Positions 1-60,461 of a stretch of DNA of 64,000 nt are shown here, piece after piece. The notes beneath the pieces are model-generated. The model saw nothing but the letters and a program-made list of their open reading frames with translations. It searched no databases and was not told the origin of the DNA. Source of the stretch: Novispirillum itersonii subsp. itersonii ATCC 12639 (lineage in GTDB: Bacteria > Pseudomonadota > Alphaproteobacteria > Rhodospirillales > Rhodospirillaceae); assembly GCF_000381985.1 (NCBI RefSeq), contig NZ_KB907345.1:62001-126000 (forward strand), read 5' to 3'. Made by a program: the position numbers and the translations under genes. Each line of letters starts with the position of its first letter. Position 1 is the stretch's first letter.

Positions 1-761
1 ACAAAGTTAAAAGGGTTCTAAGCGCCTCTCCCCACCCGCCGCCTGAGGAAGCAAAAAATAAAAGCGGAGCGGAGCGACGGGCGCGTTGAGCGCCCGTGCC
101 CGGCGTGGGCACGTAAGCCAAGCGGGCGGATGCCCGCGCCCGGCGCCTGAGGGGCCAAACAAAAAAGCCCGGCTCTGCCGGGCTGACTGGGCCATTGAGG
201 CCCCGCGCGACCATTCGCGCGTAAGCCAAGGGCGCGGACGCGCCCGCCCGGCGTGTGAGGGACAGAACAAAGGAAAGCCCGGCCCTGCCGGGCTGACTGG
301 GCCATTGAGGCCCCGTGCCCGCGTGGGCACGTAAGCCAAGCGGGCGGACGCCCGCGCCCGGCGCCTGAGGGGCCAAACAAAAAAGCACGGCGCTGCCGGG
401 CTGACTGGGCCATTGAGGCCCCGCGCGACCATTCGCGCGTGAGGCAAGGGCGCGGACGCGCCCGCCCGCCGCCTGAGGGACAGACAATGGAAGCCCGGCC
501 CTGCCGGGCTGACTGGGCCATTGAGGCCCCGTGCCCGCGTGGGCACGTAAGCCAAGCGGGCGGACGCCCGCGCCCGGCGTGTGAGGGGCTAAACAAATGG
601 AAGCCCGGCGCTGCCGGGCTGACTGGGCCATTGAGGCCCCGTGCCCGCGTGGGCACGTAAGCCAAGCGGGCGGACGCCCGCGCCCGGCGCCTGAGGGGCC
701 AAACAAAAAAGCACGGCGTAGCCGGGCGGACGCCCGCGCCCGCCGCCTGAGGGACAGACAA
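1..761. repeat. Tandem array of about 109-bp hairpin-cassette units
   Basis: No gene is supported here. The conserved word TAAGCCAAG (one copy degenerate) starts near 114, 222, 332, 440, 548 and 658, a period of 108-110 bp. Each unit carries three stem-loops. Hairpin A (16 nt, 6-4-6) is GTGCCC-GCGT-GGGCAC or GCGCGA-CCAT-TCGCGC. Hairpin B (16 nt) is GCGGGC-GGAC-GCCCGC or GGGCGC-GGAC-GCGCCC. Hairpin C is close to GCCCGGC-nCT-GCCGGGC and is followed by TGACTGGGCCATTGAGG. The stem sequences change completely between units but stay self-complementary. Read on the minus strand, several hairpin C copies are followed by T runs like intrinsic terminators. The same family recurs near 25.7 kb. The long antisense reading frames across the array simply translate the repeat. 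Confidence 0.9.
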
Positions 762-791
762 AAAAGACAGGCCAGACGGTTCTGGCCTGCC
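761..791 (-). terminator. Intrinsic terminator after the PaaA-like gene
   Basis: Read on the minus strand, GGCAGGCCAGA and TCTGGCCTGTC pair around a 4-nt loop and are followed by TTTTTT. It sits directly downstream of the minus-strand gene that ends at 801. Confidence 0.8.
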
Positions 792-800
792 CCTTTTTCC

Positions 801-1580
801 TTAAACCGATGGAATCGGCGGCAGCGACAGCCCCAGGTCTTTCAGCCGGACCGAGATGTCGGCCAGCCAGCGGTTCAGCAGCTCCGGCCCCGAGGCACGG
901 CGCAGGCCGAAGCGGGCGTACTGGCCGGAATGCTGGGATTCCGAGCGGCCGAACGTGGCGGTGACACGGGGGAACCAGTAGTCCACCGCCAGCTGGGCCT
1001 TGGCCCCGCTGCGGGACCGGTCGATGGCCTGCTTCAGCCCTTCGTGGCCCCATTCGGCATGCTGCTTTTCCCGCGCCACCACCGGCTTCAGGGCATCGGC
1101 GAGCGGCTGGTAGGAACAGCCGGTCAGCTCCGCCAGCTGCACGGCAGAGGCGGTGCCCATCAGCAGGTTGAGGGTCAGGGCATCCAGCCAGCCTTCCAGC
1201 GGGTAATGGAAGACGTTCAGCCGCTTGTCAGAGCCGACGCGGCGGGTGCCAAGATCCAGCGCCCGGTCAAGGCGGCTGTACCAGCAGTGCGACCGCACAT
1301 ACAGGTCGGCGTTGACGTTAAACGGTTCCATCAGTGCCAGCACCTGATCGGCGTGCTGGTACTTCTCGCTGACGATCCGGGCAGCGATGCCGCGTTCCTT
1401 CAGGCCCGGCGCGCTGTTGATGAAGGGCACAAAGCCCGCCGCGCCCGCCAGTTCGGAATCGACGAACACCGCCATCAGGCGCATCAGTTCGCCCCGGTAG
1501 CCCGGCGACAGGTCATCGCCTGCGGCAAAGGTGCCGCCTGCGGCGATGTGGGTGATGATGTCGGTATCGGTCTTGGCCAT
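801..1580 (-). CDS. PaaA-like phenylacetic acid catabolic family protein (ferritin-like oxygenase fold)
   Basis: A 259-residue protein resembling the catalytic subunit of ring-1,2-phenylacetyl-CoA epoxidase, a ferritin-like di-iron fold. Blocks that align by eye with PaaA are the helix containing SELAG (Glu43), SEKYQH (Glu72/His76), GWLDAL (Asp133), REKQH (Glu171-x-x-His174) and a C-terminal region resembling LGMTVP. The second metal pair has normal ExxH spacing. The first reads E-x3-H, which is unusual and makes iron binding uncertain. The ATG at 1580 is preferred over the upstream in-frame GTG at 1586 because AGAGAGG lies 8 nt before it. No paaB, paaC, paaD or paaE is nearby, so a complete epoxidase cannot be made from this locus. 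It is divergent from a flavodoxin and close to paaN, which suggests a related aromatic or CoA-thioester oxidation. Exact substrate unknown. Confidence 0.75.
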   Translation of the reverse strand: MAKTDTDIITHIAAGGTFAAGDDLSPGYRGELMRLMAVFVDSELAGAAGFVPFINSAPGLKERGIAARIVSEKYQHADQVLALMEPFNVNADLYVRSHCWYSRLDRALDLGTRRVGSDKRLNVFHYPLEGWLDALTLNLLMGTASAVQLAELTGCSYQPLADALKPVVAREKQHAEWGHEGLKQAIDRSRSGAKAQLAVDYWFPRVTATFGRSESQHSGQYARFGLRRASGPELLNRWLADISVRLKDLGLSLPPIPSV

Positions 1581-1920
1581 GCTCACTGCCTCTCTGGGAC
1601 GTCTTGGCCCGGCGGTGTCGCGCCGGGGGTCGGTGGGGGTGGGCCGCCTGACGGGGCCTCGTTGTTATGGTCTCTTCCCGGTATGGTAAAAACGTCCGGC
1701 GGGAAGAGATACAAAAATAGACACCTTTCTTTAAATTTGGTATCAGAAAAAACAACGGCAGGCGAGGGCGGGAAATTCAGGCCCCGATCAAAAGCCGGAT
1801 GAGGACAGCGGCCCGCCAGAGGCCGCACTTCACGAACGGTTTCAGCTGAGCCTCCCAATTGAGTCTCAAATGACAGGCCCGGTAACAGCGGGCCGGAAAG
1901 ACAGAGGGGTAAACGTCCTT
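1581..1920. promoter_or_regulatory. Divergent intergenic region with a 10-bp inverted repeat
   Basis: 340 bp between the divergent PaaA-like and flavodoxin genes, with no gene seen. TCTCTTCCCG (1671-1680) and CGGGAAGAGA (1700-1709) form perfect 10-bp arms about 19 nt apart. An AT-rich stretch follows at about 1710-1755, plausible for divergent promoters. The repeat may be an operator or an RNA hairpin; the sequence alone does not decide. Confidence 0.5.
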
Positions 1921-2376
1921 ATGAGCAACATTCTGATCCTTGTCGGCACCGAATCCGGCAACGCCCAGATGGTCGGCGATACCCTCATGGATGAGTTCAC
2001 CGCCCTCGGTCACGGGGCGGAGGTCTCCACCGACGCGCAGACCGTCGCCGATCTGGGGCTGGACGGGCGCGACGTGGTGCTGATCGTCACCTCCACCCAC
2101 GGGCTGGGGGAGCTGCCGGACAACATCATTCCGGTCCATGATGATCTGGCGGCAAACCGCCCTGATCTCTCCGGCCTGCGCTACGGCGTGATCGCGCTGG
2201 GCGACCAGACCTATTCCGATACCTTCTGCAAGGCCGGTAAGATCATGGATGGTCTGTTTGCCGCCTGTGGCGCGCAGCGCGTCGGCGAACGCCTTGAAAT
2301 TGATGCCTGCACCCAGCCGCTGCCCGATGAAGAGGCGGTGATGTGGTCAAAGGAATGGCTGGCCCAGCTGGGCTGA
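1921..2376 (+). CDS. Flavodoxin-domain protein (MioC-like)
   Basis: A 151-residue single-domain flavodoxin. The N-terminal beta strand and phosphate-binding loop are visible as ILILVGTESGNAQMVGD. The middle motif STHGLGELPDN and the later GDQTYSDTFCKAG loop match the FMN-binding regions of short-chain flavodoxins and MioC. It should bind FMN and act as a soluble one-electron carrier. The ATG at 1921 follows AGAGGGG, while the longer frame from 1870 adds a non-homologous leader and was not used. Its position between a PaaA-like oxygenase (divergent) and paaN (downstream) suggests it could supply electrons to the oxygenase, but this is inference. Confidence 0.85.
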   Translation: MSNILILVGTESGNAQMVGDTLMDEFTALGHGAEVSTDAQTVADLGLDGRDVVLIVTSTHGLGELPDNIIPVHDDLAANRPDLSGLRYGVIALGDQTYSDTFCKAGKIMDGLFAACGAQRVGERLEIDACTQPLPDEEAVMWSKEWLAQLG

Positions 2377-2522
2377 CGCCGCCTTCAACAGTTTTGAATC
2401 AATAAAGAATATACGGCAGTCTCAAAGCCCGCAGCCGGGCGCATCCGCCGCCTGAGCCAAGACAACCGGGAAACGTTCCTGAAAAGACATCCGGGGCCAG
2501 CCGCCCCGCAAAGGAGAAGCAC

Positions 2523-4196
2523 ATGAGCCGCCTGAGCGATCTGGTCGCCAAACATCAGGGCCTGCTGGATAAGGGCATTGAAGCCGCCGCCGCGCGCGGG
2601 TACTGGGCTGCCTATCCGGAAATGCCGTCCGGCAAGATTTATGGCGAAACCGCCAAGGACGATGGCGAAGCCGCTTTCAAAGCCGCGCTGAACCAGCCGT
2701 TCGCGCTGGACGTACCGGGTGCCTCCGGCACCGTCGGGGCGGAACAGAGCCCGTTCGGCTTTGATCTTGGCATCACGTACCCCAAGGCCGATGTTTCCGC
2801 CGTCATCGCCGCCGCGCAGGCCGCCCTGCCGGGCTGGCGCAAGGCCACCCCGCTGGAACGCGCCGCCGTCTGCGCCGAAATCCTCGAGCGGCTGAACAAA
2901 AAGTCTTACGAAATCGCCTTCGCCGTGATGCACACCACCGGGCAGGCCTTCATGATGGCCTTTCAGGCCGGTGGCCCCCACGCGCAGGACCGTGGCCTTG
3001 AAGCCGTGGTCTACGCCCTGAAAGCCCAGACCGACGTGCCGGGCGGCGAAGTGGTGTGGGACAAGCCGCAGGGCAAGAACCCGCCGCTGGTGATGAAAAA
3101 GCGCTTCCACGTCGCCCCGCGCGGGGTGTCGGTGATGATCGGCTGCTCCACCTTCCCGACCTGGAACGGTTATCCCGGCCTGTTCGCCAGCCTCGCCACC
3201 GGCAACCCGGTGATCGTTAAGCCGCATCCGGGTGCGGTGCTGCCGCTGGCGATCACCCTGAAAATCGCCCGCGAGGTGCTGGCCGAAGCCGGGTTTGATC
3301 CCAACCTGCTGATTCTGGCCGCCGACAGCGCCGATGCGCCGATCACCAAAGATCTGTGCCAGCGGCCGGAGGTGAAGATCATCGACTTCACCGGCTCCTC
3401 CGCCTTCGGCAACTGGCTGGAAGACAACTGCCGTCAGGCGGTGGTCTATACCGAAAAGGCCGGGGTCAACTTCGTCATCATCGAGTCCACCAACGACTTC
3501 AAGGGCATGATCCGCAACATGTCCTTCACCCTGTCGCTGTACACCGGGCAGATGTGCACCACCACCCAGAACATCTTCATCCCCAAGGGCGGCATCGACA
3601 CCGAAGACGGCCATAAGTCCTTCGATGACGTGGCGCAGGCGCTGGCCACCGGCGTTGACAAGTTCCTCTCCGACCCGGCCCGCGCCGTGGAAGTGCTGGG
3701 CGCGGTGCAGAACCCCGCCACCGCCGCCCGCATCGCCGATGCCGCCAGACTGGGCGAGGTGGTGCTGGCGTCAAAGACCCTCGATCATCCGTACCTGCCG
3801 GGCGCCCGCGTGCATACCCCGACCATCATCAAGCTGTCGAAGGCCGACGAAGCCGCCTACACGCAGGAATGCTTCGGCCCGGTCAGCTTCGTGATCGCGG
3901 TGGATGACGCCGACGACGCCATCGCGCTGGCCCGCAAGACGGCGATGGAACACGGGGCGATCACCGCCGGTCTGTATTCCGCCAAGGATGAGGTGATCGA
4001 AAAGACCACCGAAGCCTGCCTTGATGCGCAGGTGGCCCTGTCGGTCAACCTGAACGGCGGCGTGTTCGTCAACCAGACCGCCGCCTTCTCCGACTTCCAC
4101 GCCACCGGCGGCAACCCGTCGGCCAATGCCTCGCTGGCCGACTACGCCTTCGTCGCCAACCGCTTCCGCTTCGTCGGGGTGCGCGTTCCGGCATAA
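2523..4196 (+). CDS. paaN: PaaN-type aldehyde dehydrogenase (phenylacetic acid degradation protein)
   Basis: A 557-residue member of the aldehyde dehydrogenase superfamily, matching the length and features of PaaN proteins, which lack the MaoC domain of PaaZ. Visible landmarks are the NAD-binding motif region IIDFTGSSAFGNWL, the general-base region TEKAGVN and the catalytic cysteine in TGQMCTTTQN. The C-terminal FGPVSFV and GGVFVNQTAAF blocks are typical of the family. It probably oxidises a semialdehyde formed after ring opening in phenylacetyl-CoA-like catabolism. A strong Shine-Dalgarno, AAAGGAG, lies 8 nt before the ATG. It follows the flavodoxin by 146 bp on the same strand and ends at a strong terminator. 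The rest of a paa cluster is absent from the window. Confidence 0.85.
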   Translation: MSRLSDLVAKHQGLLDKGIEAAAARGYWAAYPEMPSGKIYGETAKDDGEAAFKAALNQPFALDVPGASGTVGAEQSPFGFDLGITYPKADVSAVIAAAQAALPGWRKATPLERAAVCAEILERLNKKSYEIAFAVMHTTGQAFMMAFQAGGPHAQDRGLEAVVYALKAQTDVPGGEVVWDKPQGKNPPLVMKKRFHVAPRGVSVMIGCSTFPTWNGYPGLFASLATGNPVIVKPHPGAVLPLAITLKIAREVLAEAGFDPNLLILAADSADAPITKDLCQRPEVKIIDFTGSSAFGNWLEDNCRQAVVYTEKAGVNFVIIESTNDFKGMIRNMSFTLSLYTGQMCTTTQNIFIPKGGIDTEDGHKSFDDVAQALATGVDKFLSDPARAVEVLGAVQNPATAARIADAARLGEVVLASKTLDHPYLPGARVHTPTIIKLSKADEAAYTQECFGPVSFVIAVDDADDAIALARKTAMEHGAITAGLYSAKDEVIEKTTEACLDAQVALSVNLNGGVFVNQTAAFSDFHATGGNPSANASLADYAFVANRFRFVGVRVPA

Positions 4197-11493: not shown

Positions 11494-11563
11494 AGGTTTG
11501 TCAAGGCGCGGCGGCGGGCCGGGATCATCAGCGGTGCGGCTGAAAGGAATGCTGAAAAGCAAG

Positions 11564-11593: not shown

Positions 11594-11668
11594 TGGTGGG
11601 CGATACAAGGATTGAACTTGTGACCCCACCCGTGTGAAGGGTGTGCTCTCCCGCTGAGCTAATCGCCC
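11594..11668 (-). tRNA. tRNA-Val (anticodon CAC), copy 1
   Basis: 75 nt with encoded CCA. The acceptor GGGCGAT pairs with ATCGCCC. The D arm is GCTC/GAGC, the anticodon stem CACCC/GGGTG with loop TTCACAC gives anticodon CAC (Val, codon GUG), and the T arm is ACAAG/CTTGT with loop TTCAATC. It is identical to the copy at 12594-12668. Confidence 0.96.
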
Positions 11669-12593: not shown

Positions 12594-12668
12594 TGGTGGG
12601 CGATACAAGGATTGAACTTGTGACCCCACCCGTGTGAAGGGTGTGCTCTCCCGCTGAGCTAATCGCCC
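12594..12668 (-). tRNA. tRNA-Val (anticodon CAC), copy 2
   Basis: The same 75-nt sequence and cloverleaf as at 11594-11668, exactly 1000 bp away. Identity extends over about 119 bp (12585-12703 against 11585-11703), including the leader, but stops before the promoter. Confidence 0.96.
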
Positions 12669-25648: not shown

Positions 25649-25667
25649 CAGATCCGCCAGAGGCAAG

Positions 25668-25960
25668 GGAAGGGCGCGGATGCGCCCGTCCGCGCGTGCG
25701 GACGTAAGCCAAGCGGGCGGAGGCCCGCGCCCGGCGCCTGAGGGACTAAAAAGAAAACCGGAGCGCAGAGACTGGCCCATTGAGGGCCCGTCCGCGCGTG
25801 CGGACGTAAGCCAAGCGGGCGGACGCCCGCGCCCGGCGCCTGAGGGACCGAACAAACGGAGGGCTGCGCAGCAGACCGACTGGCCCATTGAGGGCCCGCG
25901 CGACCATTCGCGCGTAAGCCAAGCGGGCGGACGCCCGCGCCCGGCGCCTGAGGGGCCGAA
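25668..25960. repeat. Second hairpin-cassette array, three units
   Basis: The 331-bp gap between the hydrolase and amidohydrolase genes holds three units of the family seen at 1-761. TAAGCCAAG starts at 25705, 25807 and 25915. Hairpin A is GTCCGC-GCGT-GCGGAC in two units and GCGCGA-CCAT-TCGCGC in the third. Hairpin B is GCGGGC/GCCCGC in all three, with a four-base loop that varies, and the centre of the array keeps GACTGGCCCATTGAGG. The third unit runs directly into the Shine-Dalgarno of the next gene, so the array forms its leader RNA. Confidence 0.9.
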
Positions 25961-31285: not shown

Positions 31286-31622
31286 GGGGTGTTGCCCGGA
31301 ATTTGCCGTATTCCATTCAGACAGCGTTCAGGCGGGCAGGGGTAGTGTCTGTCTTACACGCTCTCTCTCCTTGTCGTGTCGTAACAAAGACCCTGCCTTA
31401 AACAAGCCCTGTATGATCAAAGTCCCTCCCATTTTGATCCGTTATCCTGTCTGTCTTATGTTCCCTGTCCTGTTTTCCCTGTCCTGTTTTCCCTGTTCTG
31501 TTTTCCCTGTCTTGATACCCTGTCTGTATTTACCTTGTCTGTCCTTGTCCCCTTTAAGATAATCCCCTCTCTTTAAAGGGATCCCCACGAAAACGGCTCC
31601 GGGCTCCACCGGGGCCGTTTTT
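31286..31622. repeat. Gene-free stretch with CCTGT-rich pyrimidine repeats and a terminator
   Basis: From about 31443 to 31552 the + strand is almost all C and T with CCTGT recurring. Its core is four 14-bp units starting at 31461, 31475, 31489 and 31503, with consensus TTCCCTGTCCTGTT. At 31589-31622 AAAACGGC and GCCGTTTT with inner GC-rich pairs form a hairpin with flanking A and T runs, suited to terminate the minus-strand LysR gene. No gene is supported. Confidence 0.75.
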
Positions 31623-55466: not shown

Positions 55467-55631
55467 GTGCGAGGCTGCCCGGTGCGTGAGGTGCACTACT
55501 CCCGGGGGCTATAATATTCAAACGAGGGAGCTGTCCCTGTAGGGGCTCTGGCCTTTATACACGGCGCCCACTTTGTGCTCGCGGCCTTAGTGGAGGGTCT
55601 GCGGACCAACGGCCTACGGTGGCTTCGCACT
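55467..55631 (+). ncRNA. ssrS: 6S RNA
   Basis: About 165 nt between zapA and the 5-formyl-THF cyclo-ligase gene, the conserved position of 6S RNA in many proteobacteria. The ends pair as a closing stem: GTGCGAGGC (55467-55475) with GCTTCGCAC (55622-55630). The centre contains GC-rich arms around an A/U-rich internal bubble (CTATAATATTCAAAC near 55510-55525), which fits the open-promoter-like bulge that binds sigma-70 RNA polymerase. No reading frame is supported here. Exact ends are approximate. Confidence 0.85.
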
Positions 55632-60369: not shown

Positions 60370-60461
60370 CGGGGGATCCCTTTCTGACAGGGGGTGTGAG
60401 GCTGCCGGGGGATGTGAGGCTGACAGGGGATGTGAGGGCTTCACAGATCCGGGGCGTGTTG

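Follow-up and report, generated by a model that had tools for sequence, protein, structure and literature searches.

The window, a stretch of 64,000 nucleotides from the Novispirillum itersonii genome (4.29 Mb in 34 contigs), begins with a tandem array for which Tandem Repeats Finder gives a period of 108 and 5.9 copies at 86–731. The anchors of its units, taken as the first base of GTRAGSC, lie at 113, 221, 331, 439, 547 and 657, and a partial unit with a tail at about 34–48 precedes unit 1. Six units of about 109 bp had been described in an earlier sequence-only reading, and these, plus the partial ones, are confirmed by the sequence, the unit parse and Tandem Repeats Finder. Two alternative stems occur at each of the positions A and B, with the second types in units 2 and 4, as that reading had it: GTGCCC/GGGCAC at A and GCGGGC/GCCCGC at B in units 1, 3, 5 and 6, and GCGCGA/TCGCGC at A and GGGCGC/GCGCCC at B in units 2 and 4. 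The 6-4-6 geometry ascribed to these hairpins holds in general and fails for the A hairpin of unit 1, the loop of which has five bases (GGCGT). Each unit additionally contains a third hairpin, E (GGGCC-ATTGA-GGCCC except in unit 1), and a 3-bp helix, GCC/GGC, that closes hairpin B and is inverted in unit 4 to GGC/GCC, both arms together. The features are listed in Table 1.

Table 1. Repeat features in the window and one unitless site.
Feature	Position	Strand	Details
Entire first array	34..760	+	partial tail, six units and one internally deleted unit
Unit 1, 5′ half	80..112	+	E hairpin 80-94 (GGCGC-GTTGA-GCGCC), A hairpin 96-112 (6-5-6)
Unit 1, 3′ half	113..153	+	GTAA, closing GCC/GGC, B hairpin 122-137, tail TGAGGG
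Unit 2	185..261	+	E 189-203, A 205-220, closing 225-227/250-252, B 230-245, tail to 261
Unit 3	295..371	+	E 299-313, A 315-330, closing 335-337/360-362, B 340-355
Unit 4	403..479	+	E 407-421, A 423-438, closing GGC 443-445/GCC 468-470 (flipped), B 448-463
Unit 5	511..587	+	E 515-529, A 531-546, closing 551-553/576-578, B 556-571
Unit 6	621..697	+	E 625-639, A 641-656, closing 661-663/686-688, B 666-681
D hairpin linking units 1 and 2	166..184	.	others at 276-294, 602-620 and 492-510 (last by eye)
Internally deleted unit after unit 6	704..753	+	D arm fused to B, closing (GCC), tail
Second array	~25650..25960	+	three units, anchors 25704, 25806, 25914; flanked by two co-directional genes
Site of sister-species array L083, unitless here	11502..11563	.	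sister species: 5′-cut unit, full unit and tail piece between the same flanks

The genes beside the first array, at 801–4196, encode a PaaA/PaaC-family protein, a flavodoxin and an aldehyde dehydrogenase. The second array carries a further A type, GTCCGC/GCGGAC. Two other tandem repeats in the window, at 31461–31542 and 60384–60437, are by eye unrelated to the array family, and a 6S RNA match above the gathering score lies at 55469–55629 on the + strand. Long open reading frames on the − strand of the array raised the possibility of a protein-coding repeat, which was rejected: the period of 108–110 bp shifts the frame, and they were judged to be shadow ORFs of GC-rich DNA.

The architecture of the unit was derived from fetched stretches of two related genomes, in which 133 units were parsed, 67 in this genome (G000) and 66 in that of a sister species (G001). 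The unit comprises about 84 nt plus the variable D hairpin and follows the order GACTGG, hairpin E, hairpin A, GTRA, the closing helix with hairpin B, TGAGGG and an A-rich linker. The B loop reads GGA or GGAN, and GGA starts it in all 126 B hairpins counted in the genus. An alignment of 102 of the 133 units, from which units with N runs, B hairpins of other length, odd E hairpins and duplicates were excluded, defines four helices (E, A, closing and B) with 20 pairs in all. Of its 2040 pair cells 99.1% are paired, against 82.4% after shuffling and 32–60% when partners are slid, and 12 pairs show two-sided changes. In 500 shuffles the observed values for percentage paired, for two-sided pairs and for the covariation score were never attained; one of the five measures, the count of further pair types, did not exceed the shuffles (418 of 500 were as high). 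RNAalifold, run on the alignment alone, returned the same four helices with one extra pair at A. The two arms of the closing helix can pair in 126 of the 133 units, 83 with GCC/GGC and 43 with GGC/GCC.

Two alignments from other genomes, with 86 distinct units from 67 loci and 96 from 60 loci, were fitted to the model and hence biased towards it, and have 95.8% and 96.9% of their cells paired, with 0 of 500 shuffles as high on every measure. The closing helix flips in other genera too, different genera have the unpaired words and the GGA loops in common, and compensatory changes are seen in several lineages, within the genus and in both other-genome alignments. The proposal of a structured element, for which covariation at the A and B stems had been named as support, is therefore upheld by the shuffle test and extended to E and the closing helix. 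Simple slippage, which the sequence-only reading had already disfavoured, is unable to give two-sided changes in four helices. Long-range helices suggested by single-sequence folds were discarded on reading the units, among them the D arm/GCCCGGC helix, as D stems vary independently of GCCCGGC, and the TGACT/AGCCA helix, as GGC variants disrupt it with GACTGG unchanged.

The stem types had been read as unrelated and replaced whole, and this part of the sequence-only reading finds no support. B types are linked by single base-pair steps (GCGGGC-GGGGGC-GGGCGC and GCGGGC-GCGGAC), as are E types (GGGCC-GGCCC-GGCGC), and A types stand one pair (GTGCCC-GCGCCC) or two pairs (GCGCCC-GCGCGA, GTGCCC-GTCCGC) apart; GCGCCA, between GCGCCC and GCGCGA, is present in another genome. 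Beyond the genus, many additional stem types occur. The linkage of A and B types is local to the first array of the window and does not hold as a rule (Cramér's V 0.18, permutation p 0.22, n = 116, two genomes). In the same two genomes the closing helix is linked to B (V 0.33, p 0.002), and weak linkage joins E to A (V 0.29, p 0.0085) and E to the closing helix (V 0.23, p 0.049). The cassettes reassort, as 34 of the 96 possible combinations of common types were found among 109 units.

Mispaired B hairpins occur in 11 units. Six of them join arms of two known types, and the remaining ones look like the result of a deletion or of point changes. Four of these 11 units, three of them chimeras, also have a mispaired closing helix, vs two of the 122 others (p 3.6e-4), which is the outcome expected of a crossover in the B loop. 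Together, the chimeric hairpins and the mispaired closing helices show that ordinary recombination creates new cassette combinations, while mispaired combinations remain rare. These chimeras could also be substrates of a process in which no selection acts on the fold at all: template switching at imperfect palindromes would re-pair the arms, and recombination would supply the variants. Quasipalindrome correction by template switching is known in Escherichia coli (PMC7202029). Such correction should yield Watson-Crick stems only and no strand asymmetry.

Exceptions to regular pairing were found outside the genus. Tandem G-A stems (GCGAGC-N4-GCGAGC), replacing two pairs, make up 14 of the 99 distinct A parses, in 12 other genomes and two genera, a count that covers units fitting 6-4-6, most of the remaining rows being misfits of 5-bp stems. 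The pair flanking the tandem G-A co-varies in two genomes (GCGAAC/GTGAGC). The predicted RNA energy of these stems is −6.4 kcal/mol on the + strand and −3.7 kcal/mol on the − strand; the DNA energies of the two strands are nearly equal. Under a strand-symmetric rule, the B hairpins of other genomes contain 11 G-T/T-G and no A-C/C-A cells among 144, vs no G-T and three A-C among 126 in the genus, with 2 and 3 unpaired B regions dropped and 16 G-A/A-G cells elsewhere, several of them beside the loop. Counts over all helices based on the covariance model give G-T vs A-C ratios of 18 vs 4 and 12 vs 4 elsewhere and 3 vs 4 in the genus; the model may favour G-U, and the rows used were 83 of 90 (alignment A3) and 78 of 100 (A4), with short, long and duplicate rows omitted. 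The wobble excess and the tandem G-A stems suggest that outside the genus it is the + strand that folds, as RNA or as single-stranded DNA. Within the genus the wobble counts do not favour the + strand, and there the lack of a G-T excess over A-C agrees with quasipalindrome correction. Outside it, the tandem G-A stems with their changed flanking pair, the 11 vs 0 wobble asymmetry and the cross-genus conservation of unpaired words and GGA loops all speak against such correction, and we regard a fold free of selection as improbable.

The element is not confined to the window. BLAST, with 40 candidates scored per genome, places it at no fewer than 38 positions in this genome and at least 43 in the sister species. 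Unit counts are lower bounds because some arrays run into contig ends or N runs. A covariance model built from the genus units finds the element in at least 11 of 73 genomes of the family, one family-level search step taking in 8 genomes, and in at least 125 of 297 genomes drawn from the order, representing 53 of 111 genera. Exact-pattern matches come from metagenome-assembled genomes (MAGs) of Rhodospirillaceae, Magnetovibrio, Magnetospirillum and an alphaproteobacterium, from Paramagnetospirillum kuznetsovii and Plastoroseomonas hellenica, and from one record labelled Rhizobium; two loci (L028 and L148) contain an identical unit and possibly represent one genome twice. Plasmids carry it as well, with three matching records from Niveispirillum and Azospirillum, and in the one annotated record of two inspected the copy is intergenic. 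The alternative of two or three stem types derived from one recent duplication does not describe these data: covariation at the A and B stems, further stem types and copies across genome and order identify a recombining hairpin family. The element thus belongs to an order-wide Rhodospirillales family of structured, recombining, interspersed intergenic repeats.

No Rfam 15 family matches the array at gathering score; anti-hemB comes nearest, on the − strand, with 23 of the required 49.5 bits. The element shares RNA-type covariation with the structured RNA families of Rfam and resembles known bacterial repeat families, yet it is absent from Rfam 15. Among titles, beginnings of abstracts and some passages of full-text literature mostly outside subscription journals, no paper describes it. 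Among the matches listed for its sequence words all are of ten letters, with no occurrence of the longer words.

The ends of the arrays in the genus are unequal. Among 57 analysable 5′ edges 26 are cut within a unit, though four of these extend to GTRAGSC and might have degenerated instead; nine of the 57 start within E or A, and a partial B-tail piece is present at 17 of the 48 others (background 1.1), as searched at 2 mismatches (background 2.3%) in place of 3 mismatches (background 14%). At the 3′ side none of 60 analysable edges ends in a unit that has E and lacks the tail. Seven tailless units were judged by eye to represent one deletion, one contig end, four point changes in the tail and one spurious case, and at some 3′ ends the D hairpin is still present, followed by a few bases from the next E (e.g., G000 C1:60936). 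Fixed 3′ and ragged 5′ ends would point to copying from the 3′ end or to one-ended transfer of a single strand. As a separate observation, a 125-bp tandem repeat at G000 C2:235902-236027 seemingly combines the element with flanking unique sequence.

At least 12 array positions are common to the two species, which means that turnover is not rapid, and the arrays compared differ in unit number and stems. The first array of the window has six units here vs two in the sister species, with a common left flank up to about position 22, and the counterpart of the second array is a degenerate B-tail piece only. Conversely, two arrays of the sister species (L072 and L083) face no unit at the matching place in this genome. 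The L072 array corresponds to a 119-bp gap here (G000 C2:20739-20859), with flanks only 70–76% alike. At L083, which adjoins a tRNA-Val gene, the flanks match up to both junctions and this genome has 54 other bases; the array is cut at AAG before B on its 5′ side and ends 3′ in the A-rich linker. CAAG is found on both sides of the L083 array, on both sides of the 54 bases and inside the unit, and no clear target-site duplication was recognised at the sites examined, the L072 flanks being too diverged to judge. In the same part of the window, two tRNA genes of equal score lie exactly 1000 bp apart on the − strand (11597–11668 and 12597–12668).

Genes were predicted by a home-made finder that relies on codon usage and had only this genus as its training set. 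Arrays lie outside predicted genes in 62 of 63 cases in the genus and in 137 of 139 in other genomes, where the distance of the copies from stop codons (medians 28 and 44.5 nt) is shorter than that from starts (84 and 155 nt). Between co-directional genes the element is sense in 11 and antisense in 22 cases in the genus, vs 52 and 29 in other genomes. The 14 largest protein families beside the copies are assorted common ones, which speaks against a recurrent neighbour gene.

The proximity to stop codons and the excess of sense copies outside the genus, along with the bias of wobble and tandem G-A pairs to the + strand, are what would be expected if the element benefited the host as RNA, either as hairpin arrays that stabilise a 3′ UTR or serve as attenuator or terminator at the end of a transcript, or as small RNAs. 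The D hairpins, followed on the − strand by a T-rich run, are terminator-like; three of them are among the five terminator-like sites in window positions 1–1000, though this is not far above the 2.4 (sd 1.7) expected by chance. Set against a host role are the inconstant orientation to genes, with antisense copies prevailing in the genus, the assorted neighbours, the variation of unit number and stem types at positions common to both species, and the lack of a promoter-like site in window positions 1–1000. CsrA, the obvious reader of GGA loops, is missing from this genome as well. Selection of the element as a host-beneficial RNA is in our opinion possible and somewhat unlikely. An RNA that sequesters CsrA/RsmA was also considered, as GGA starts the loop of every B hairpin counted in the genus, but with no match to Pfam PF02599 in this genome, vs 3 of 14 control genomes that match, it is refuted here, and we give it next to no credence.

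The orientation of arrays in the genus follows base composition. The + strand lies on the G-rich strand, as defined by third-position GC skew, in 52 of 63 arrays, which are not all independent since at least 12 array positions are common to both species; each species is skewed by itself (27 of 32 and 25 of 31 arrays). Only 25 of the 63 arrays agree with the coding strand, and where skew and coding strand disagree the skew is followed in 31 of 35; the first array of the window is one of the 11 exceptions to the skew. The G-rich strand is usually the leading strand. If this applies here, the + strand in the genus is on the lagging-strand template. The rule fails in other genomes, where 71 of 139 arrays comply, and in three genomes of one or two contigs the counts among the matches listed are 22/43, 27/57 and 17/34 by third positions and 18/43, 27/57 and 13/34 by all bases. 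A replication-strand bias, strong in the genus and absent elsewhere, was consequently rejected as a general rule.

Several known systems share some of these properties. Repetitive extragenic palindromes (REPs) are described in a survey (PMC3733652) as tagged palindromes of 20–40 bp located mostly downstream of coding regions, and the REP/BIME elements of the GTAG and CGTC super-families resemble the present element in being multi-copy, intergenic, palindromic, near gene ends and variable in their stems. This likeness would favour mobilisation by a RAYT (Y1) transposase. The unit, however, is not a single palindrome tagged GTAG or CGTC; it has four helices in fixed order over about 84 nt, one of them closing B, along with unpaired words that are conserved, a polar organisation with a fixed 3′ end and, in some genomes, tandem G-A stems. 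Moreover, the Y1 transposase has no match in this genome and is absent from 33 of the 52 genomes with at least 13 element matches. Over the 297 genomes, 41 have both the element and Y1, 84 the element only, 45 Y1 only and 127 neither (p 0.24), which shows no association. RAYT-dependent mobilisation was rejected on these grounds and is in our estimation very improbable. CGTC REPs are reported in the same survey (PMC3733652) to have no dedicated transposase. No recurrent transposase was seen among the largest protein families beside the copies.

Modular hairpin repeats between genes also include the Rhizobium RIME, other alphaproteobacterial intergenic repeats and the pneumococcal BOX, and the element is like them in this respect. 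As in MITEs, it is short, non-autonomous and dispersed, and in two genomes (G194 and G298) and one Rhodospirillaceae MAG (L026, L029) the units are paired head to head in inverted orientation, with outer ends of the TGAGGG type. Unlike in MITEs, the units here are mostly arrayed on the same strand, with neither a clear target-site duplication nor a matching transposase seen. G194 and G298 also contain a longer A variant, at the inverted-pair loci L135, L136 and L178-L194.

Taken together, we favour, at an even chance of being right, a non-autonomous dispersed structured repeat of which the folded single strand, DNA or RNA, is what spreads. The units would spread as the folded + strand recognised by a putative enzyme, which would start from or hold the 3′ end, and the fold and the unpaired words would be retained because this enzyme requires both. 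Arrays would then enlarge by tandem duplication and exchange stretches by recombination, and mispaired products would be lost by failing to spread or be re-paired by compensatory change.

One version of a spreading RNA is a bacterial SINE-like element: a small structured RNA, the + strand, which a reverse transcriptase borrowed from another element would retrocopy, beginning at the A-rich 3′ end, into DNA between genes. Eukaryotic retrocopies of the SINE/LINE type are structured, have an A-rich fixed 3′ end and include 5′-truncated copies. The element matches them in its structure, A-rich 3′ end, fixed 3′ ends and truncated 5′ ends, and differs in often forming tandem arrays. The SINE-like version would account for the fixed 3′ end and the truncations at the 5′ side, for stem changes of RNA type and for the fact that in the genus the element prefers the lagging-strand template, as the group II intron RmInt1 is reported to do (PMC8914252). 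We hold it to be a long shot.

Repeats between bacterial genes tend to be regarded as plain palindromes, and here an order-wide family has a complex conserved fold. Two related genomes provide over 100 naturally varied units with polar ends and without the usual transposase, which makes three questions testable: by what route a repeat can spread if no RAYT serves it, in which form, RNA or single-stranded DNA, the fold is required, and how stems are kept paired by the joint action of recombination and compensatory change. The arrays at several contig ends of the assembly make the element relevant to genome completeness.
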